A DNA stretch of 34,490 bases, taken from positions 1-34,490 of the forward strand of contig JAGAUY010000038.1 in assembly GCA_017620525.1 (NCBI GenBank), given 5' to 3'. Below, one piece after another: positions 24,281 through 34,347 of this stretch (the stretch's first letter is position 1; each line of letters starts with the position of its first letter). Below the pieces are notes generated by a model. The model was given only the letters and a program-made list of their open reading frames with translations. It did not search any database and was not told where the DNA came from. The position numbers were made by a program, and so were the translations under genes. The stretch is from Oscillospiraceae bacterium (GTDB lineage: Bacteria; Bacillota; Clostridia; Oscillospirales; Oscillospiraceae).

Positions 24281-24309
24281 TTGATAATTTTAGGGAAATG
24301 TGATATCCT
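24281..24309 (+). promoter_or_regulatory. Promoter of the add riboswitch leader
   Basis: TTGATA (24281-24286), 17-base spacer ending in TGA, TATCCT (24304-24309), extended -10. It predicts a start near 24316 and a leader of about 340 bases. Confidence 0.65.
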
Positions 24310-24339
24310 AAATTGCGTTGAAGATAAGGATAAATATTC

Positions 24340-24403
24340 CTCATATACTTACGCTGTTATTGGTGCGTATGTTTCTACGAGCCGCCTAAAGGCCCACTAT
24401 GAG
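24340..24403 (+). promoter_or_regulatory. Purine riboswitch aptamer 1, guanine-type pocket
   Basis: P1 CTCATA/TATGAG; P2 TACGC/GCGTA with L2 ending TTGG; J2/3 TGTTTCTAC; P3 GAGCC/GGCCC (one A-C mismatch) with L3 GCCTAAA, whose CC can pair with the GG of L2 as in known purine aptamers; J3/1 then C74 (24397). In xpt numbering the pocket bases are U22, U47 (24372), U51 (24376) and C74, all as in the guanine class. C74 excludes the adenine class. Confidence 0.88.
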
Positions 24404-24436
24404 TATCTATAGATTCTTTTTCTGCGCTAGATACTC
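24401..24436 (+). promoter_or_regulatory. Alternative hairpin after aptamer 1
   Basis: GAGTATCTA (24401-24409) pairs perfectly with TAGATACTC (24428-24436). It uses the 3' strand of P1, so it competes with the aptamer. No T run follows its 3' arm, although TTTTT lies in its loop; it is therefore a switching helix rather than a clear terminator. Confidence 0.6.
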
Positions 24437-24467
24437 GATTGTATTGAAACAAATAGAATTGAAGTAT

Positions 24468-24531
24468 CTCATATAGTTACGCTGTTGATGGTGCGTATGA
24501 CTCCACTGGCCGCCTAAAGGCCTGCTATGAG
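24468..24531 (+). promoter_or_regulatory. Purine riboswitch aptamer 2, variant binding pocket
   Basis: Same length as aptamer 1 and 54/64 identical, with the same P1, P2, L3 and L2-L3 pairing potential. J2/3 is TGACTCCAC: A47 (24500), C48 (24501), C51 (24504). Position 73 is G, and C74 (24525) is kept. P3 is repaired at its base (A-C mismatch becomes G-C). Changes at 47 and 51, which contact the ligand in known structures, point to a different ligand. U51C is also a feature of 2'-deoxyguanosine-binding relatives. Confidence 0.8.
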
Positions 24532-24569
24532 TATCTGGAACTCGCTAGTCGGGACAGATGCTCTTTTTT
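24529..24569 (+). terminator. Riboswitch-controlled terminator (ON switch)
   Basis: GAGTATCTG (24529-24537) pairs with CAGATGCTC (24555-24563, one G-T pair), followed by TTTTTT. Its 5' arm overlaps the P1 3' strand of aptamer 2, so a ligand-stabilised P1 should block the terminator and turn transcription on. Confidence 0.8.
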
Positions 24570-24580
24570 ATTGCAAAAAT

Positions 24581-24621
24581 GAGTACCTGTTTCCTGAGTA
24601 GGGGACAGGTACTCTTTTTTT
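24581..24621 (+). terminator. Second terminator in the add leader
   Basis: GAGTACCTGT with ACAGGTACTC plus TTCC/GGGG (24581-24594 with 24601-24614), loop TGAGTA, then seven T. Its arms resemble the first expression platform (TGAGTACCTG versus TGAGTATCTG), as if that platform had been copied. Confidence 0.8.
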
Positions 24622-24653: not shown

Positions 24654-25658
24654 ATGTATAAATTAGGACAAAACTATGGTCTCATCGATCTCCATCTCCA
24701 TCTGGACGGCTCCCTTTCTGTCAAAACCGTCCGGGAACTGGCTTTGATGCAGGGAATGGAGGTTCCGCAGAATGAAGAGGATTTGCTTGAACTGCTACAG
24801 GTTGGCAGGGACTGCAAGGATCTGAACGAGTATCTGGAGAAGTTCAGCTTTCCCTGTGCCCTTCTTCAGACGAAACAGGCAATCACGAAGGCTGTATCCA
24901 ACTTGCTGGAAGAACTGAAAGCCCAGGGATTGCTTTATGCGGAGATTCGGTTTGCACCTCAGCTGCATACTTTACAGGGACTTACTCAGATGGAAGTGGT
25001 TCAGGCTGCAGTCAATGGGCTTACCTTGTGTGATTTCAAAGCCAATCTGATCCTGTGCTGTATGCGCGGCAGCGACAATCAGGAGCAGAATATGCAGACA
25101 GTTCAGTTGGCCTCGCGCTTCCTTGGAAAGGGTGTCTGCGCTGTCGATCTGGCCGGAGCGGAAGCGATTTATCCAACGGCTTACTTTGAGGATTTGCTCT
25201 ACACTGCGAATGAAATGGGGATTCCCCTTACAGTCCATGCAGGTGAAGCGGCTGGTGCCGACAGCGTATGGGCAGCGTTGAAGATTCATCCAAAGCGAAT
25301 TGGCCACGGTGTTCGTTCGTTGGAGGACGAGGCGCTTGTTAAGCATCTGGCTAAAGAGGGAATCACACTGGAATTGTGTCCCACCAGTAACCTCAATACG
25401 AATATTTTTCCAAGCATTTACGATTATCCGCTGTGTCATTTCATGGATGCCGGTGTGAAAGTAACGATCAATACAGACAATATGACAGTATCAGGGGTTA
25501 ACATCCGGTCTGAGATGGAAAAGGTGATTGATGCGTTTTCTTTGTCGAAAGACTATGTAGGAAAACTCGAGATGAATGCGGCAGATGCCTGCTTCGCAAC
25601 TCCTGAGGTTAAGGAATGGCTTCGTTGTCAGATTAGGGAAATACTCTGCCTGAAATGA
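24654..25658 (+). CDS. add: Adenosine deaminase
   Basis: 334 residues, ATG at 24654, seven bases after GGAGGG; the longer open frame runs into the terminators and is not coding. It deaminates adenosine and deoxyadenosine to inosine and deoxyinosine. Amidohydrolase motifs: zinc ligands H14 and H16 in DLHLHLDGS, TVHAGEA with zinc His and catalytic Glu, RIGHGVRS, LELCPTSNLNT, and the zinc Asp in NTDNMTVSG (TDN rather than TDD, as I recall for many Gram-positive Add). Expressed behind the tandem riboswitch leader; a short terminator-like hairpin follows, so read-through to the next genes is uncertain. Confidence 0.93.
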   Translation: MYKLGQNYGLIDLHLHLDGSLSVKTVRELALMQGMEVPQNEEDLLELLQVGRDCKDLNEYLEKFSFPCALLQTKQAITKAVSNLLEELKAQGLLYAEIRFAPQLHTLQGLTQMEVVQAAVNGLTLCDFKANLILCCMRGSDNQEQNMQTVQLASRFLGKGVCAVDLAGAEAIYPTAYFEDLLYTANEMGIPLTVHAGEAAGADSVWAALKIHPKRIGHGVRSLEDEALVKHLAKEGITLELCPTSNLNTNIFPSIYDYPLCHFMDAGVKVTINTDNMTVSGVNIRSEMEKVIDAFSLSKDYVGKLEMNAADACFATPEVKEWLRCQIREILCLK

Positions 25659-25828: not shown

Positions 25829-26566
25829 ATGGATCATCGAAAGCTATTAGAACAAATTGAGAGTATTTTGGAACAGATTCCGGATGAGCAGAGAGAGTAT
25901 TTCAGGAAATACTTTCATAATGCTCCGAATTCGTTAATGAGTACGATTAATATTGAGAGAAGAAGTGCCAATAAAATTCTAGTTGAAGAAAGCGAACCTA
26001 TCGAGAAGATCTATGTCCTAATGAAAGGCACAGTGAAAGCTATTGATTTTAGAGTGAAGGGTTCGACATATGAATATGCGCGATTTGAGGGTGTCACGAT
26101 TCTTGGCTCCATGGAATGTGTGTTTGGTATTCAGAACTACATGACGACCCTGATCACGGCTACACCGTGTACATTCCTGGTCATTCCCAGGCAGACCTTT
26201 GAAAGCTGGATCTGGAGCGATACAAGTGCGCTTCGTATTGAGGCGGAGAGTATGAGTTCCTATTTGCTTGAACATACCCGGGAAAACCGCGTTATGCTTC
26301 TTTTGAATGGCATGGAGCGCCTGATGTTGTTGCTGGTCAAGATGTGTGAGTCCAGAGGTAATGCGGAAGTGTATGTTCTGGCAATCAATCGACAGGAACT
26401 GGCAGAGCAAACCGGCTCCAGTGTGAAAACTGTTAACCGTTCCATGAAAAAGCTGGAGGAGAGCGGGTTCCTAATCAGGGACGGCCATAAAGTAAAAATT
26501 GTACAAAAACAATATGCTTCCATGCGGACACATTTGGACAAAATTTTGAGTAATGCCCCAAAATAA
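25829..26566 (+). CDS. Crp/Fnr family transcriptional regulator
   Basis: 245 residues, ATG at 25829 with GGAGGGAG upstream. The N-terminal half is a cNMP-binding-like beta-barrel (NKILVEESEPIEKIYVLMKG, residues ~49-68). The C-terminal winged helix carries LAINRQELAEQTGSSVKTVNRSMKKLEESGF (~185-215). No cysteine cluster for an iron-sulfur centre is seen. Lying between add and deoD, it probably regulates the nucleoside genes; the effector is unknown. Its GC is lower than that of the importer genes. Confidence 0.88.
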   Translation: MDHRKLLEQIESILEQIPDEQREYFRKYFHNAPNSLMSTINIERRSANKILVEESEPIEKIYVLMKGTVKAIDFRVKGSTYEYARFEGVTILGSMECVFGIQNYMTTLITATPCTFLVIPRQTFESWIWSDTSALRIEAESMSSYLLEHTRENRVMLLLNGMERLMLLLVKMCESRGNAEVYVLAINRQELAEQTGSSVKTVNRSMKKLEESGFLIRDGHKVKIVQKQYASMRTHLDKILSNAPK

Positions 26567-26690: not shown

Positions 26691-27404
26691 ATGGATATGT
26701 CTCAAACACCTACTCTTCACAATGCGGCCCGCAAGGGCGAAATCGCAAAGACTGTGCTGATGCCCGGAGATCCCCTGCGCGCGAAGTACATTGCAGAGAA
26801 ATTCTTTGAGAATCCCAAGCTTGTCAGCGATATTCGTAATATCTACTGCTACACTGGCACCTATAATGGCAAGGAAGTTTCTGTTATGGGCAGCGGCATG
26901 GGTATTGGCTCCATGAGCATCTACTCCTATGAGCTGTTCAATTTCTATGATGTGGATCAGATCATCCGCGTCGGCTCTGCCGGTGCGCTGAACCATGATC
27001 TGAAGCTGCGTGATGTAGTTGTCGGACAGACCGCCTCCAGTGACAGCAATTACGCAGCAAAGTACAATCTGCCCGGCACCATCGCTCCTTGCGGTGATTT
27101 CGGCATGATCGAAGGCGCTGTAAAGTACGGCAGAGAGCATGGCATCAACATGCGTGTAGGTTCCCTTCTTTCCGGTGCAGGCTTCTATTACAGCGACGAG
27201 TGGATGGAGCAGTGGCGCAGGATGGGCATTTTGGCCGTTGAGATGGAGGCTTATGCCCTGTATCTGAACGCTATTGAGGCCGGCAAGAAAGCTCTGGCCC
27301 TGTGTACCATCTCTGACCTGATCTTCAGTGGCGAGTGCTGCACTCCCCAGGAGCGGCAGGAAAGCTTTGACGATATGATTCGTATGGCACTGTCCCTGGC
27401 CTGA
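26691..27404 (+). CDS. deoD: Purine nucleoside phosphorylase, DeoD type
   Basis: 237 residues, ATG at 26691 after AAAGGAA. Splits purine ribo- and deoxyribonucleosides with phosphate, giving the base and (deoxy)ribose-1-phosphate. Hexameric PNP signatures: MPGDPLRAK (24-32) for phosphate, GSGMGIGSMSIYSYEL, RVGSAGAL, AVEMEAYALY for the ribose, and TISDL with the catalytic Asp. Full length. Its product feeds deoB and deoC further down the locus. Confidence 0.95.
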   Translation: MDMSQTPTLHNAARKGEIAKTVLMPGDPLRAKYIAEKFFENPKLVSDIRNIYCYTGTYNGKEVSVMGSGMGIGSMSIYSYELFNFYDVDQIIRVGSAGALNHDLKLRDVVVGQTASSDSNYAAKYNLPGTIAPCGDFGMIEGAVKYGREHGINMRVGSLLSGAGFYYSDEWMEQWRRMGILAVEMEAYALYLNAIEAGKKALALCTISDLIFSGECCTPQERQESFDDMIRMALSLA

Positions 27405-27491: not shown

Positions 27492-28670
27492 ATGAAAAAA
27501 ATGTTCGCAATGTTCCTTGCTGTTGCCATGATCGTCTGCTGCTTCGCAGGCTGTGGCGCCGGCGGCAACGAAGGCACCGACGCTGAGTACATGGTCGCAA
27601 TGATCACTGACTTCAGTGACATCACCGACCAGTCCTTTAACCAGATTACTTACGAAGCCTGTAAGGCTTTCTGCGATGAGAACGGTGTTGACTTCAGATA
27701 CTACAAGCCCGCCGGCGATACCACCGCTGACCGCGTCGGCATGGTCGAAAAGGCTGTTGACGAGGGTTACAACATCATCGTGATGCCCGGCTTCTCCTTC
27801 GGCGGCACCATCGCCGAGGTCTCCGAGGACTACCCCGACATCAAGTTCATCGGCCTGGACGTCAGTGCCGGTGATATCCTGGAAGCAGGTGTCCCCGCAG
27901 CAGGTGAGGAATACGACTGGAACCCCGACAACTGGAACGTCACCGACTACTACTACGAAGAGAATGTCTACTGTGCGATCTACCAGGAGCATCTTGCTGG
28001 CTACATGGCCGGTTATGCTGCTGTCAAGATGGGTTACACTGAGCTGGGTTTCCTGGGTGGTATGGCTGTCCCCGCCGTTAACCGTTACGGTTACGGCTTC
28101 GTTCAGGGCGTTGACGCAGCAGCCGTGGAGCTGGGCGTGAATCCCACCATCAAGTTCGCATACGGCAATACCTTCGCTCCCGACCCCGACATCAAGGCTG
28201 CCATGGATACCTGGTACAGCGATGGTACCGAGCTGATTTTCCCCTGCGGCGGCGGCATCTACAGCTCCGTTGCTGAGTCCGCTGCAGCTCTGAACGGTAA
28301 GGTCATCGGCGTTGACGTTGACCAGGCTGCCATTATCGACGGCACCTACGGCGAGGGCTTGACTGTTACCTCCGCCATGAAGGGCCTGTACAACACTACT
28401 GTCAATACCCTGGCTGATGTGATCCTGAATGACAACTGGGCAAATTACGCCGGCAAGATCGAGTCTCTGGGCCTGGTTTCCAGCGACGTTGAGGGTAACT
28501 ACGTTGGTATCCCCACCGAATCCACCCAGTGGTCCGATTCCTTCACTTTGGAGGACTATAAGGCTCTGGTTGCTGGTATCTACGACGGCACCATTACCGT
28601 TTCCGGCGCGCTGACCGGTATCCCTGCAACCACCAACACCACTGTTGTTGACCTGGGCAGCATTAAGTAA
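27492..28670 (+). CDS. BMP family nucleoside-binding lipoprotein of an ABC importer
   Basis: 392 residues, ATG at 27492 with GGAGGAG upstream. A lipoprotein signal runs from KK through the hydrophobic LAVAMIVCC to the lipobox FAGC (cysteine at residue 19). The mature protein fits the Bmp/PnrA family: MVAMITDFSDITDQSFNQ, then VEKAVDEGYNIIVMPGFSFGG and DVDQAAI. Family members bind nucleosides outside the membrane. Followed by the ATPase and two permeases. Codon use is strongly biased to C-ending codons, suggesting high expression. Confidence 0.93.
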   Translation: MKKMFAMFLAVAMIVCCFAGCGAGGNEGTDAEYMVAMITDFSDITDQSFNQITYEACKAFCDENGVDFRYYKPAGDTTADRVGMVEKAVDEGYNIIVMPGFSFGGTIAEVSEDYPDIKFIGLDVSAGDILEAGVPAAGEEYDWNPDNWNVTDYYYEENVYCAIYQEHLAGYMAGYAAVKMGYTELGFLGGMAVPAVNRYGYGFVQGVDAAAVELGVNPTIKFAYGNTFAPDPDIKAAMDTWYSDGTELIFPCGGGIYSSVAESAAALNGKVIGVDVDQAAIIDGTYGEGLTVTSAMKGLYNTTVNTLADVILNDNWANYAGKIESLGLVSSDVEGNYVGIPTESTQWSDSFTLEDYKALVAGIYDGTITVSGALTGIPATTNTTVVDLGSIK

Positions 28671-28772: not shown

Positions 28773-30311
28773 TTGGAAAACGCTTACGCAATCGAGATGT
28801 TAAACATCACCAAAAAATTCCCTGGTATTATTGCCAACGATAATATCACGCTCCAGCTGAAGAAGGGCGAAATCCATGCACTCCTTGGCGAAAACGGTGC
28901 AGGTAAGTCTACTCTGATGAGCGTGTTGTTTGGCCTATATACACCGGAGGAAGGTATCATCAAGAAGGACGGCAAGGAAGTCAAGATCTCCAATCCCAAT
29001 GACGCAAATGATCTTGGCATCGGCATGGTTCATCAGCATTTCAAGCTGGTGGAATGCTTCTCCGTTCTGGACAACATCATCATGGGCGTCGAGCCTGTGA
29101 AGAACGGCTTCCTGGACAAATCTGTGGCCCGCAAGAAGGTTACTGAGCTGTCTGAAAAGTACGGCCTGCATGTTGACCCCGATGCAATCATTGAGAATAT
29201 CACAGTTGGTATGCAGCAGCGTACCGAGATCCTGAAGATGCTGTACCGCGACAACGAGGTTCTGATTTTTGACGAGCCCACTGCAGTGCTGACGCCCCAG
29301 GAAATTTCCGAGCTGCTGCAGATCATGAAAAATCTGGCTGCTGAGGGCAAGAGCATCCTGTTCATTACCCACAAGCTGGCCGAAATTATGGAAGTCGCAG
29401 ACCGCTGCACCGTTATCCGCAAGGGTAAGTACATCGGCACCGTGGACGTCAAGACCTCTTCTCCCGCAGAGCTGTCCGCTCTGATGGTTGGCCGTGATGT
29501 CAATTTCCATGTTGAAAAGAAACCCCAAGAGTTGAAGGATGTCATCCTTTCTGTTGAGAACATGAGCGTTGCCGGTGAACCTGGCAAGCAAGATGTCATC
29601 AAGAACGTTTCCATGAAGGTTCGCGGCGGCGAGATCGTGTGCCTTGCCGGTATCGACGGAAACGGTCAGTCTGAGTTTGTTTACGCCCTGTCCGGTCTGC
29701 TGCCCGTAAAATCTGGCAAGATCAAGCTTTGCGGCAAAGAAATCCAGAATATGAGCATCCGCAAGAGAAGCATGTCCGGTATGAGTCATATTCCTGAAGA
29801 CCGTCATAAGCATGGCATGGTTCTGGACTATCCGCTGGAAGACAACATGATTCTCCAGACTTACTTTAAGCCCAACTTTACTTCCAAGTTCGGCTTCCTG
29901 AAGCGCAAGAACATCCGCAGCTTCTCTGACAGATTGATCGAGATGTACGATGTTCGTTCCGGCCAGGGCTCCGTTACCATCGCAAGAGCAATGTCCGGCG
30001 GTAACCAGCAGAAAGCGATCATTGCCCGTGAGATTGACAAAGAACCTGAACTACTGATTGCTGTTCAGCCCACCCGTGGTCTGGATGTCGGTGCCATCGA
30101 GTTCATCCATAAGCAGCTGGTTGCCCAGCGTGATGCCGGCAAGGCTGTTCTGCTGGTCTCTCTGGAACTGGATGAAGTAATGGACGTTCCCGACCGTATT
30201 TTGGTTATGTATGAAGGCGAAATCGTTGGTGAGTTCGATCCCAAGGCCGTATCCCAGGAAGAGCTGGGCCTGTACATGGCCGGTGCAAAGAAGGACGAGG
30301 TGAAGGTCTAA
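28773..30311 (+). CDS. Nucleoside ABC importer, double ATP-binding protein (NupO/YufO type)
   Basis: 512 residues from TTG at 28773, seven bases after GAGGG. Two ATPase domains: the first has Walker A GENGAGKS (39-46), signature ITVGMQQR and Walker B LIFDEPTAVL; the second has the degenerate Walker A GIDGNGQSE, signature MSGGNQQK and LLIAVQPTRGLD. This arrangement is typical of the nucleoside branch of the RbsA-like family. It energises uptake through the two following permeases. The stop overlaps the next start by one base. Confidence 0.95.
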   Translation: MENAYAIEMLNITKKFPGIIANDNITLQLKKGEIHALLGENGAGKSTLMSVLFGLYTPEEGIIKKDGKEVKISNPNDANDLGIGMVHQHFKLVECFSVLDNIIMGVEPVKNGFLDKSVARKKVTELSEKYGLHVDPDAIIENITVGMQQRTEILKMLYRDNEVLIFDEPTAVLTPQEISELLQIMKNLAAEGKSILFITHKLAEIMEVADRCTVIRKGKYIGTVDVKTSSPAELSALMVGRDVNFHVEKKPQELKDVILSVENMSVAGEPGKQDVIKNVSMKVRGGEIVCLAGIDGNGQSEFVYALSGLLPVKSGKIKLCGKEIQNMSIRKRSMSGMSHIPEDRHKHGMVLDYPLEDNMILQTYFKPNFTSKFGFLKRKNIRSFSDRLIEMYDVRSGQGSVTIARAMSGGNQQKAIIAREIDKEPELLIAVQPTRGLDVGAIEFIHKQLVAQRDAGKAVLLVSLELDEVMDVPDRILVMYEGEIVGEFDPKAVSQEELGLYMAGAKKDEVKV

Positions 30312-31420
30312 TGAAAAAGAACATTCTTAAGAACAATGGTTTTCAGACTCTTCTGGCATCTCTGGTCTGTATCGTTCTGGGTATTCTGATCGGCTTTTTG
30401 GTTCTGCTGATGATCGAACCCTCCGGCGCATTTGATGCCATCATGAGCATTGTCAAGAACTTCCTCAACTACAGCCGTGCAAATCTGCAGATCAAGAATC
30501 TTGGCAAGACCCTGGTCAAGACTGCACCTCTGCTGATGTGCTCTCTGTCCATTCTGTTCTCCTATAAGGTTGGTCTGTTCAATATCGGCGCTGCAGGTCA
30601 GTATGTTGTCGGTGCCTGTGCAAGCCTGTATGCCGCTATTGCTTGGCAGTGGGGCTGGCTGCCCTGCCTGCTGCTGGCATGTGTCGCATCCGGTGCCGTT
30701 GGTGCGCTGGTCGGCGCAATGAAGGCCTACTTCAATGTCAACGAAGTTATTTCCGGCATCATGCTCAACTGGATTGCCCTGTATGTTACCAACATGATTC
30801 TTGGCAACGTCAAGGCTGCCTCCAACCCCTACACCCGTGTTTTGGCTGAGGCCAACAAGTCCGCCATCCTGCCCACCATGGGTCTGGACAGGGTCTTTGG
30901 CCTGCAGTATGTCAGCATCGCGATTCCTCTGGCCATTTTGTTCGCTGTTCTGGTTTGGGTTGTTATGAACAAGACCAAGTTCGGCTATGAGCTCCGGGCC
31001 ACCGGCCTGAACAAGAATGCAGCCAAGTACTGTGGCATGGCCGAGAACCGCAACATCATCCTGTCCCTGGCAATTTCCGGTGCTCTGGCTGGTCTGGGTG
31101 CAGCATTCCTGTACCTGACCGATATCGAGCAGTGGAAGTGCACTGTCTCTGCCGTTCCTCAGATGGGCTTCAACGGCATCGCTGCTGCATTCCTGGGTGG
31201 TCTGTCTCCCATTGGTACCATCTTCGCTTCCTTCTTCATCCAGCACATCACAGAAGGCGGCACTCAGGTTGACATGACCATGTACTGCTCCCAGATTTCC
31301 GATCTGATCTCCGCAATCATCATCTATCTTTGCGGCTTCACCGCATTCCTGAAGCTTGCTATGAACAAGGCCATTGCTAAGTTTGAGAGCAAGAATGCTA
31401 AGGAAAGGAGCACGAAATAA
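30311..31420 (+). CDS. Nucleoside ABC importer, permease 1 (NupP/YufP type)
   Basis: 369 residues, TAATG overlap with the ATPase gene. An integral membrane protein with about nine to ten helices. GLFNIGAAGQYVVGA (near 93-107), NEVISGIMLNWIA and GFNGIAAAFLGGLSPIG are the conserved blocks of BPD_transp_2-type nucleoside permeases. Forms a heterodimer channel with the next gene product. Confidence 0.94.
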   Translation: MKKNILKNNGFQTLLASLVCIVLGILIGFLVLLMIEPSGAFDAIMSIVKNFLNYSRANLQIKNLGKTLVKTAPLLMCSLSILFSYKVGLFNIGAAGQYVVGACASLYAAIAWQWGWLPCLLLACVASGAVGALVGAMKAYFNVNEVISGIMLNWIALYVTNMILGNVKAASNPYTRVLAEANKSAILPTMGLDRVFGLQYVSIAIPLAILFAVLVWVVMNKTKFGYELRATGLNKNAAKYCGMAENRNIILSLAISGALAGLGAAFLYLTDIEQWKCTVSAVPQMGFNGIAAAFLGGLSPIGTIFASFFIQHITEGGTQVDMTMYCSQISDLISAIIIYLCGFTAFLKLAMNKAIAKFESKNAKERSTK

Positions 31421-32361
31421 TGCTTTTGTTGATTCAGTATACAATCATTTTTACTGCAATCCTTTCACTGGTTGCATTGGGTGGCTGCTTCTCTGAGCAC
31501 TCCGGTGTCATTAACCTGGGTCTGGAAGGTACCATGGTTATCGGTGCAATGGGCGGTGCTCTGCTGATGCGTATGCTGCCTGACGGCACTCCCGTTTTCC
31601 TCATCGTCATTCTGGTCATTCTGATCAGTATCGTTGTGGGTATGCTGTATTCCTGCCTGCTGGCGGTTTCTGCCATCCATTGCAAGGCTGACCAGACCAT
31701 CATCGGTACTGCAATGAACCTGCTGGGTGTTGCGGTTGCTACCGTTATCGTCAAGGCCATCAACCTGTCCATCAACCCCGACGACCCCTCTTCGATTGTT
31801 CAGTACGTCGCTGAGAAACAGGCTTTCCTGGTCAACATCGGTGACTTTGAGTTCAATTGGTTTTCGCTGATTGCATTGGTTGCTCTGATCGGCTCCTATG
31901 TGGTTCTGTACAAGACTCGTTTCGGCCTGCGTCTGTGTGCTTGTGGTGAGCATCCCCAGGCTGCTGACTCCGTTGGCATCAATGTTTACAAGATGCGTTG
32001 GGCTGGTGTCCTTATCTCTGGTATGCTGGGTGGTCTTGGCGGTATCGCTTACATCATCGCCGGCGCCAGCGAATGGAAGTTCGAGAACGGTGTTGCCGGC
32101 TTCGGCTTCCTGGCTCTGGCTGTTATGATCTTCGGCGAGTGGAAGCCTCATAAGATTTTGATGGCTGCACTGGTGTTTGGATTTTTCCGCGCTTTGGGTA
32201 ATGTCTATTCCGGCATTGATTTCCTGAGCAATCTGAACATTCCCAGCGCATTCTATACCATGCTTCCCTATATCATTTCTCTTGTCATCCTGGTCTTCAC
32301 TTCCAAGAAGTCCCGTGCTCCCAAGGCAGAGGGTATTCCTTACGATAAGGGTGTAAGATAA
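31420..32361 (+). CDS. Nucleoside ABC importer, permease 2 (NupQ/YufQ type)
   Basis: 313 residues, again TAATG-coupled. BPD_transp_2 family: SEHSGVINLGLEGTMVIGAMGG, HCKADQTIIGTAMNL, YKTRFGLRLCACGEHPQAAD, and ENGVAGFGFLALAVMIFGEWKP. Shorter than permease 1, as usual for this pair. Completes the importer. Confidence 0.94.
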   Translation: MLLLIQYTIIFTAILSLVALGGCFSEHSGVINLGLEGTMVIGAMGGALLMRMLPDGTPVFLIVILVILISIVVGMLYSCLLAVSAIHCKADQTIIGTAMNLLGVAVATVIVKAINLSINPDDPSSIVQYVAEKQAFLVNIGDFEFNWFSLIALVALIGSYVVLYKTRFGLRLCACGEHPQAADSVGINVYKMRWAGVLISGMLGGLGGIAYIIAGASEWKFENGVAGFGFLALAVMIFGEWKPHKILMAALVFGFFRALGNVYSGIDFLSNLNIPSAFYTMLPYIISLVILVFTSKKSRAPKAEGIPYDKGVR

Positions 32362-32426: not shown

Positions 32427-32472
32427 TGTTTTACCAACTCAGGGAGTTCCCTGACAGAAAGTGAGCGAACAC

Positions 32473-33663
32473 ATGAAAAAGTATAAGCGTATTTTTACGG
32501 TTGTCATTGACAGCCTTGGTGTCGGCGCCCTGCCTGACGCAGCAAATTATGGCGATGCCGGTACCGATACTCTGGGCCATATCTCCAATACGATGGATAC
32601 CTTCCGGATTCCTAATCTGCAGAAGCTGGGAATGGCAAACCTGCATCCTCTGAAGCAGGTTGCTCCTGTAGAAAAGCCTCTGGGCTACTATACCTATATG
32701 TATGAGGCCAGCACCGGCAAGGACACCATGACCGGACACTGGGAAATGATGGGCCTGCACATTACCAAGCCCTTCCAGACCTTCACCGAGACCGGTTTCC
32801 CCAAGGAACTTCTGGATGAACTGTCCGCCCGGACAGGCCGTGTCATCATCGGCAACAAGAGCGCTAGCGGCACCGAAATTCTGGACGAGCTGGCAGAAGA
32901 AGAAATCGCCACCGGTCACATGATCGTATATACCTCTGCTGACTCCGTACTGCAGATCTGTGGTAACGAGGAGACTTTCGGCCTGGATGAACTGTACCGC
33001 TGTTGTGCCATCGCCCGTGAGATCACCATGAAGGATGAGTGGAAGGTTGGCCGTGTTATTGCACGTCCCTATGTGGGCAAGAAGAAGGGCGAATTTAAGC
33101 GCACTGCTAACCGTCACGACTATGCACTGAAGCCCTACGGCCAGACGACTCTGAACGCGCTGAAGGATGCCGGACTGGATGTCATCTCCGTTGGCAAGAT
33201 TTTCGATATCTTTGATGGCGAAGGTCTGACCGAATCCAATAAGTCCAAGAGCTCCGTCCACGGTATGGAGCAGACTATCGAGATTGCCAAGCGTGACTTT
33301 GAGGGCCTGTGCTTTGTCAATCTGGTTGACTTCGATGCCCTGTGGGGCCATCGCCGTGATGTGGCAGGCTATGCTGCAGAGCTGGAGCGCTTTGATGAAA
33401 AGCTTGGCGAGCTGCTTAAACTGCTGAAGGATGACGACCTGCTGATCATCACTGCCGACCATGGCAACGATCCTACCCACACCGGCACCGATCATACCCG
33501 CGAGAGAGTACCCTTCATCGCTTACTCTCCTTCCATGGAAGGCTGCGGCAAGCTGGATAATACGGATACCTTTGCCGTCATCGGCGCTACCATTGCTGAC
33601 AACTTCGGCCTGAAGATGCCAGAGGGTACCATCGGTACCTCCGTTCTGGACAAACTGAACTGA
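32473..33663 (+). CDS. deoB: Phosphopentomutase
   Basis: 396 residues from ATG at 32473, the start that matches the family N-terminus MKKYKRIFT...; a GTG at 32461 would add four residues. No good Shine-Dalgarno precedes either start. Interconverts (deoxy)ribose-1- and 5-phosphate. Metal and catalytic sites: [11 protein letters not shown] with D13, D84-T85 in [12 protein letters not shown] with T85 as the phosphorylated residue, and [17 protein letters not shown] near the end. Links deoD to deoC. Confidence 0.95.
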
Positions 33664-33678
33664 GAAAGGAATATATTT

Positions 33679-34347
33679 ATGGATAAGAATACCGTTCTGA
33701 AGACTGTCGACCACACTCTGCTGGGTGTTACTTCTACTTGGGCCGAGATCCAGGCCATTCTGGACGATGCCATGAAGTATGGCACCGCTTCTGCCTGCAT
33801 CCCCGCTGCATTTGTCAAGCGTGCTGCTGACTATGTTGCCGGCAAGCTGGCTATCTGCACTGTCATTGGCTTCCCTAACGGCTACAACACCACCGCTGTG
33901 AAGGTCTTCGAGACGAAGGACGCGATTGCCAACGGCGCAGAAGAGATCGATATGGTTATCAACATTGGTGACCTGAAGGACAAGCGTTATCAAGTTATCG
34001 AAGACGAGATCCGCTCTATTCATGAGGCTTGCGGCGGTAAGATCCTGAAAGTCATCATCGAAACCTGCCTGCTGACCGAGGAAGAGAAGATCAAGATGTG
34101 TGAAATCGTCACCAATGCGGGTGCTGAGTACATCAAGACTTCTACAGGCTTCTCCAAGGGCGGTGCAACCTTTGATGATGTGGCTCTGATGCGCAAGTAT
34201 ATCGGTGCTGAAGTTAAGGTCAAGGCTGCCGGCGGCATCTCTTCCTTTGATGATGCAGAAAAGTTTATCTCCCTGGGTGCAGAGCGACTGGGCACCAGCC
34301 GCCTGATCAAGATCATGAAGAACACCGACACCGGTGCGGGCTACTAA
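33679..34347 (+). CDS. deoC: Deoxyribose-phosphate aldolase
   Basis: 222 residues, ATG at 33679 after AAAGGA. Cleaves 2-deoxyribose-5-phosphate to acetaldehyde and glyceraldehyde-3-phosphate. Class I aldolase residues: D91 in [10 protein letters not shown]153 in YIKTSTGF (Schiff base), K182 in VKAAGGI (proton relay). Its presence shows that deoxynucleosides are among the intended substrates of this locus. Fifteen bases after deoB, same transcript. Confidence 0.96.

Follow-up and report, generated by a model that had tools for sequence, protein, structure and literature searches.

Tandem purine-riboswitch aptamers, the second with an altered ligand pocket, ahead of a nucleoside-degradation operon in an Oscillospiraceae bacterium

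What does a purine-riboswitch aptamer sense when its ligand pocket departs from that of an adjoining copy of the same element? The question is raised by the window analyzed here, a 34,490-nt stretch of DNA from a gut bacterium of the Oscillospiraceae, in which two such aptamers, 128 bases apart, lie upstream of a nucleoside-degradation operon. We consider it marginally probable that the second aptamer (copy 2) is a working one, derived from a guanine ON switch and retuned to a guanine nucleoside, the other half of the tandem being a canonical guanine aptamer (copy 1).

Two aptamers and the operon downstream

The aptamers, together with the pocket segments of copy 2, are located as follows:

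24338..24405, + strand: aptamer copy 1, with a canonical guanine-type pocket (RF00167 46.7 bits; J2/3 GUUUCUAC, J3/1 AC)
24466..24533, + strand: aptamer copy 2, with an altered pocket (RF00167 30.0 bits; R2 23.2 bits; P1 6 bp, P2 5 bp, P3 4 bp)
24499..24506, + strand: J2/3 of copy 2, GACUCCAC (positions 46-53; A47 = 24500, C51 = 24504)
24524..24525, + strand: J3/1 of copy 2, G73 and C74 (C74 being the expected partner of the guanine face)

Copy 1 (46.7 bits) scores above the Rfam gathering score of 37 bits for RF00167 and copy 2 (30.0 bits; E 0.0098, 501 bases searched) scores below it. Copy 2 is also matched at 23.2 bits (E 1.8e-4, 315,313 bases searched) by R2, a covariance model whose 14 source aptamers exclude those of the window and include one from elsewhere in the same genome. 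Because RF00167 and R2 both match it, the fold of copy 2 is a genuine purine-riboswitch fold, beyond chance. It keeps P1, P2, most of P3, the contact between the GG of L2 and the CC of L3, and C74, and all of the features by which the purine riboswitch scaffold is recognized (the P1-P2-P3 junction, L2 GG, L3 CC, and a pyrimidine at position 74) are found in it. The foot of its P3 is a U54.U72 mismatch, and copy 1 has a single A.C mismatch within P3. The source assembly is incomplete (68% complete), and copy 2 is one sequence in one assembly. Elsewhere in the window's genome, a single purine riboswitch was found above the cut-off, L001 (G000:C73:34731-34828), and its pocket is canonical.

A gap-free alignment of the two copies spans 64 nt (24340-24403 vs. 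24468-24531) and contains ten differences:

24476: J1/2
24487 and 24488: L2
24500: U47A
24501: U48C
24504: U51C
24507 and 24508: positions 54 and 55
24523: position 72
24524: A73G

Seven of these ten belong to J2/3, to J3/1, or to the two base pairs that close P3 at its foot, an eighth falls in J1/2, and C74 (24525) is identical in both copies. An earlier, sequence-only reading of this DNA had likewise counted ten differences, placed seven of them in the junction and the base of P3, and found C74 unchanged; the alignment agrees on all three points and adds the difference in J1/2. With region boundaries drawn after the fact, the clustering of the differences corresponds to p = 0.023 (5/10 in 13 junction positions), p = 0.0008 (7/10 in 15), and p = 0.0002 (8/10 in 17).

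The genes that follow are:

24654..25658, + strand: adenosine deaminase, ADA (TIGR01430 271 bits, above cut-off)
25829..26566, + strand: Crp/Fnr-type regulator (cNMP-binding and HTH_Crp_2)
26691..27404, + strand: DeoD-type purine nucleoside phosphorylase (TIGR00107 276 bits, above cut-off)
27492..28670, + strand: Bmp/PnrA-like substrate-binding lipoprotein (PF02608 100 bits)
28773..32361, + strand: ABC transporter, comprising an ATPase (28773-30311) and permeases (30311-31420, 31420-32361), with NCBIfam matches below equivalog cut-offs
32461..33663, + strand: DeoB phosphopentomutase (TIGR01696 555 bits, above cut-off)
33679..34347, + strand: DeoC deoxyribose-phosphate aldolase (TIGR00126 246 bits, above cut-off)

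These annotations describe an operon, ADA-deoD-transporter-deoB-deoC, that degrades nucleosides, and they bear out the earlier mention of deoC, which is accompanied by other nucleoside-catabolism genes. The Bmp neighbor and the operon as a whole suggest that the ABC transporter functions in nucleoside uptake. A guanine nucleoside that induced its own uptake and breakdown would make a sensible circuit, and 2'-dG-III RNAs are argued to act likewise for a nucleoside hydrolase (PMC9295807).

The altered pocket among known classes and relatives

Published work ties the choice of ligand to a small number of positions. Position 51 is described as chiefly setting nucleobase (U) vs. nucleoside (C) recognition and position 74 as setting guanine vs. 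adenine, and O2 of U47 lies 3.0 Å from guanine N9 in the bound state, where a nucleoside would carry its sugar (PMC7287874). The first shell of 2'-dG-II is given as U22, C51, and C74, with U49 in contact with the 3'-OH; C51 to U is reported to cost 83-fold in 2'-dG-I and 18-fold in 2'-dG-II, a U51C change by itself is reported to shift the preference of a guanine aptamer towards dG, and 2'-dG-II is described as able to do without its J3/1 insertion (PMC8872408). Contact of positions 47 and 51 with the purine, and U51C as a trait of 2'-deoxyguanosine binders, had both been put forward in the sequence-only reading, and both are in keeping with these accounts, in which C51 is a nucleoside determinant (PMC7287874 and PMC8872408). 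Copy 2 has all four of the letters U22, U49, C51, and C74. Its J2/3, GACUCCAC, may be compared with GUUUCUAC in canonical guanine aptamers and with GACCCCGC, the J2/3 of the Mesoplasma florum 2'-dG-I aptamer as given in PMC5838219; A47 and C51 are the same letters as in that M. florum sequence, and the letters that contact the ligand in 2'-dG-I, C51 and C74, are both present.

The likeness to each known class is partial. With guanine-I (RF00167), copy 2 shares the three-stem junction, the GG/CC kissing loops, C74, U22-A52, U49, and C50, but it has A47 and C51 where that class has U47 and U51, and it lies below the gathering score. With 2'-dG-I it shares A47, C48, C50, C51, and C74 (6/8 J2/3 letters), whereas 2'-dG-I has C49 and C22-G52 in place of the U49 and U22-A52 of copy 2, and a different L3; furthermore, 2'-dG-I acts by ligand-induced termination before ribonucleotide reductase, while copy 2 sits on a predicted ON platform before nucleoside catabolism genes. 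The first-shell letters U22, C51, and C74 of 2'-dG-II, as well as its U49, recur in copy 2, but 2'-dG-II has a two-base J3/1 insertion and G21-C, whereas copy 2 has a J3/1 of GC only, as the earlier reading had recognized in noting that the insertion was missing, and A21-U75. In addition, the reports of 2'-dG-II come from Bacteroidetes, and the copy 2 genome has its named relatives among Oscillospiraceae and other Clostridia. Copy 2 resembles 2'-dG-III as a predicted ON switch ahead of genes that degrade nucleosides, the gene of 2'-dG-III being a nucleoside hydrolase. The guanine-II and xanthine-II aptamers are described with a one- or two-base J2/3 insertion (U51 or G51), unlike the 8-nt J2/3 and C51 of copy 2. 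By its letters, copy 2 is a variant on the purine scaffold that falls outside guanine-I and fully fits neither 2'-dG-I nor 2'-dG-II. Comparison with published variant groups, which had been proposed as a check, places it in part with 2'-dG-I and 2'-dG-II and outside guanine-I and guanine-II/xanthine-II.

To these comparisons can be added the tandem systems. The guanine/PRPP tandem resembles the present leader in that its first, guanine aptamer has no terminator of its own and its second aptamer overlaps the terminator; the second aptamer there binds PRPP, whereas here it is a purine-scaffold variant. Tandem guanine riboswitches are known (7 doublets, 1 triplet), and the 2022 survey of tandem riboswitches that records them lists no 2'-dG class in tandem (PMC9481103). 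No title or abstract opening among those listed in searches of open-licence papers describes the combination of features seen here.

The pocket positions were then read in 94 relatives. The genus set consists of 31 aptamers (L001, L006-L034, which are mostly top scorers, and L077), or 31 of the 50 matches outside the window, and the family set consists of 63 aptamers from 60 regions in 400 family genomes, the regions covering 64 of the 144 listed matches. Because the family set was made from four tandem pairs and lower-scoring matches, it leans to odd sequences; one of its regions, L183, matched neither model. The procedure that locates J2/3 selects the octamer closest to the canonical sequence, and hence has a canonical bias; reading the sequences by eye gave the same picture. 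Two leaders of guanine deaminase genes in the genus, L004 and L139, lie outside these counts.

Position 51 is U in 94/94 of the relatives inspected (63/63 family, 31/31 genus) and position 47 is U in 93/94 (62/63 family, 31/31 genus), against C51 and A47 in copy 2. The remaining junction changes are distributed differently: position 48 is U in 31/31 genus aptamers and C in 25/63 family aptamers, position 72 is U in 13/63 of the family set, and position 73 in the same 63 aptamers is A in 30, G in 24, C in 7, and U in 2. Among close relatives aligned with both copies, all have G73, and A73 occurs in copy 1 alone. Because they are common in canonical family relatives, U48C, A73G, and C72U appear to be ordinary family-level variation and weak evidence for a new ligand, and U47A and U51C are, on this comparison, the two unusual pocket changes of copy 2. 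The earlier argument from the pocket is supported for the two changes that are rare among relatives and weak for the three that are ordinary in the family.

Terminators and predicted switching

The leader contains the following additional elements:

24281..24309, + strand: promoter-like site TTGATA-17-TATCCT (9/12 consensus matches)
24401..24436, + strand: T0, a hairpin GAGUAUCUA/UAGAUACUC that overlaps P1 of copy 1, without a U-run (-12.9 kcal/mol)
24529..24569, + strand: T1, an intrinsic terminator GAGUAUCUG/CAGAUGCUC followed by U6, its 5' arm overlapping the P1 3' strand of copy 2
24581..24621, + strand: T2, a second terminator (also given as 24581-24614) of 15 bp followed by U7, without an aptamer of its own (-24.5 kcal/mol)

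Since shuffles give nearly as many promoter-like sites (1.8 expected vs. 2 found in the region), the site at 24281..24309 would be weak evidence standing alone. Leaders of genus relatives are preceded by similar promoter-like sites, as judged by eye.

T0 is not an intrinsic terminator, because GAUUGUAUUG comes next and there is no U-run. Between the two copies, a hairpin with a U-run is found at copy 2 only, and because T0 lacks one, it is the altered copy 2, and not the canonical copy 1, that is wired to a terminator. The ligand-held P1 of copy 2 and T1 are mutually exclusive, and therefore an ON switch is predicted. The T0 hairpin region (24401-24445) retains both arms of the terminator seen in this lineage, with the U-run absent.

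In folding models, the probability of T1 (inner pairs) falls from 0.99-1.00 to 0.11-0.52, depending on transcript length, when the stems of copy 2 are forced, the outer three T1 pairs beside the U-run being lost by construction; it is 0.48-0.74 when copy 1 is forced along with copy 2. In isolation (24466-24533), copy 2 is predicted to fold into its three stems. Once short flanks are added, or in the context of the full leader, ligand-free modeling favors other folds over the copy 2 aptamer, which costs 4 to 9 kcal/mol in the leader and as much as 11 once copy 1 has formed, in a calculation with no ligand or tertiary terms. T2 has a probability of at least 0.84 in every state modeled, and on this model should terminate whatever the ligand state; it lies between T1 and the ADA start, directly before the ADA ribosome-binding site. 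Its 3' flank (a T-run, then ATTG) is similar to that of T1, and T2 may represent a third such platform that has lost its aptamer.

Two additional schemes were considered and rejected. Read-through of T2 by way of an antiterminator would pair the T1 3' arm with the T2 5' arm (-6.9 kcal/mol vs. -13.6 kcal/mol for the arms of T2 itself), and T2 still remains at 0.84 or more. Logic involving both aptamers (either an OR gate or a block of copy 2 by copy 1) would pair the T0 3' arm with the T1 5' arm (-10.0 kcal/mol), but the probability of this pairing is at most 0.05 in all states. With copy 1 forced, the modeled energy needed for copy 2 to form changes by 0 to 2.6 kcal/mol.

If copy 2 is a retuned switch, its mechanism may be outlined as follows. 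U47A and U51C would together open the N9/sugar edge of the ligand, while C74 would go on reading the guanine face; the most likely ligand would be 2'-deoxyguanosine, or failing that guanosine or (deoxy)inosine. Ligand binding would hold P1 of copy 2 and so use up the 5' arm of T1, and with T1 blocked, transcription would enter the ADA-deoD-transporter-deoB-deoC operon, a substrate-induced breakdown if control in the cell runs in the predicted direction. Copy 1 retains a guanine pocket and has no terminator of its own, and may or may not contribute to this control.

Origin of copy 2 and competing readings

The relatives point to a likely source for this element. R3, a model of both copies and three genus relatives, recovers from the family aptamers with a similar P1 that precede guanine deaminase genes: the flanking ORFs of the family lineage have guanine deaminase as their best NCBIfam match in 12/12 cases scanned, under the equivalog cut-off, and the flanking ORFs of L077, L004, and L139 in the genus likewise match guanine deaminase best, while L034 precedes a MATE transporter. 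A hairpin that overlaps P1 and is followed by a U-rich run was found by a single script in 15/18 of the leaders examined; the remaining three are copy 1, which lacks the U-run, and two leaders with no hairpin within the length limits of the script, although in one of them, L139, a shorter hairpin can be seen by eye. Because relatives before guanine deaminase have the same layout, the window's element reads as a duplicated guanine ON switch, and we infer an ancestry in which a switch of the guanine deaminase type was duplicated and then placed before nucleoside catabolism genes. It is possible, though doubtful, that the outcome is a separately evolved guanine-nucleoside pocket, with A47/C51, U22-A52, and no J3/1 insertion, derived from a guanine deaminase ON switch, and that the leader reads both base and nucleoside.

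Several observations count against a retuned switch, namely the single sequence, U54.U72, which weakens the foot of P3, the letters that differ from 2'-dG-I, the competing folds, T2, and the decayed aptamers of the genus. One rival, which we hold to be rather improbable, is that copy 2 has been decaying since its duplication and binds no ligand, next to a terminator that merely remains, with pocket changes that were not selected. Apparent decay of this kind is seen in the same genus, in both cases in guanine deaminase leaders. L139:1500-1595 (G113) has the J2/3 GUCUCCAC with C51 and a destroyed P1, and L004:1499-1602 (G022) has an enlarged J2/3, GUAUUACUAC, with mismatches in P1 and an L3 without CC, yet both retain a terminator-like hairpin with a U-run (in L139 by eye). 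Because L139 is clearly broken and L004 disturbed, and L139 carries C51, aptamers of this lineage evidently decay and C51 can arise meanwhile.

The searches for conserved relatives of copy 2 also favor decay. R3, run with filters that lose weak matches, found no second intact aptamer with the copy 2 J2/3 in 136 genus genomes. Among 394 order genomes, 10, counting that of the window, contained the exact J2/3 pattern, and the 11 places, all checked, held no other full fold; a broader pattern matched in 52 of 398 phylum genomes, again including the window's, and the 30 loci checked, which are part of those matches, held no other full fold. Two other pattern loci passed a loose helix test and were without GG/CC loops by eye, and a reversed-pattern control gave more matches than the real pattern in the order genomes and many in the phylum genomes. 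R2 found no purine aptamer ahead of the ADA gene in 41 related ADA loci, some of which carry little upstream DNA (only 114 bases in L060); an Rfam search of 10 of these 41 found no aptamer, nor did R3 find one ahead of the gene in four further ADA loci of the genus. Four weak R2 matches in the ADA loci (E 0.1-1.4) were taken as chance, as two lie after the gene (L040, L070), one inside it (L050), and one on the other strand and far away (L062). Because no other intact aptamer with its J2/3 turned up, no conservation supports the copy 2 variant, and the suggestion in the sequence-only reading that it may be a separate variant gained no second example in the genus, order, and phylum searches.

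Other features of copy 2 are harder to reconcile with decay. Its P1, P2, L3, and GG/CC loop contact are intact, and the differences between the copies cluster in the junction, where neutral change should show no preference. The U54.U72 mismatch is consistent with decay, but copy 1 also has a mismatch in P3 and nevertheless has a canonical pocket. Finally, both unusual changes lie at the sugar edge and both give 2'-dG-I letters, which by our own reckoning would happen by chance 1 time in 9 given two changes.

An unlikely reading is that guanine or hypoxanthine remains the ligand of copy 2, at a shifted affinity, the pair forming a tandem guanine switch that broadens the dose response. Such doublets are known (PMC9481103), and a 2'-dG-III RNA is reported to bind guanine slightly better than dG (PMC9295807). 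Tandem canonical guanine pairs also occur four times in the 400 family genomes (L171, L172, L173, and L174), three of them immediately upstream of guanine deaminase and the fourth ahead of a xanthine/uracil-type permease; in these, however, J2/3 is GUCUCUAC in 8/8 copies, with U47 and U51 kept throughout, whereas copy 2 has C51, which is reported to disfavor nucleobases. Additionally, the usual arrangement of two terminators is absent, because copy 1 has none. That copy 2 senses some other ligand pairing with C74, such as an oxidized or N9-modified guanine, rather than a nucleoside, is very unlikely: the guanine scaffold does have several ligand classes, including one for 8-oxoguanine (PMC9295807), but nucleosides and their sugars are the substrates of the operon's enzymes, and none of its annotated genes is known to handle oxidized bases.

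Should copy 2 bind a guanine nucleoside, it would represent a riboswitch caught switching ligand after duplication, with the unchanged copy adjoining it and the likely ancestral guanine deaminase switch still found in relatives. It would also provide an additional solution to nucleoside recognition on the purine scaffold, by two changes and with no insertion, and a base-plus-nucleoside tandem that controls nucleoside catabolism.

A different pocket variant was observed among the relatives, in L006:1518-1588 (G108) and in L208:242-311 / L240 (G1028). These aptamers have G52 and C22 with U51 kept, a swap of U22-A52 for C22-G52, the pair known from 2'-dG-I, and L208 also has C47. The variant precedes a gene for a Bmp/PnrA-like lipoprotein (PF02608, 85 bits in L240 and 40.5 bits across a portion of the L006 ORF), and possibly constitutes a second candidate for nucleoside sensing.
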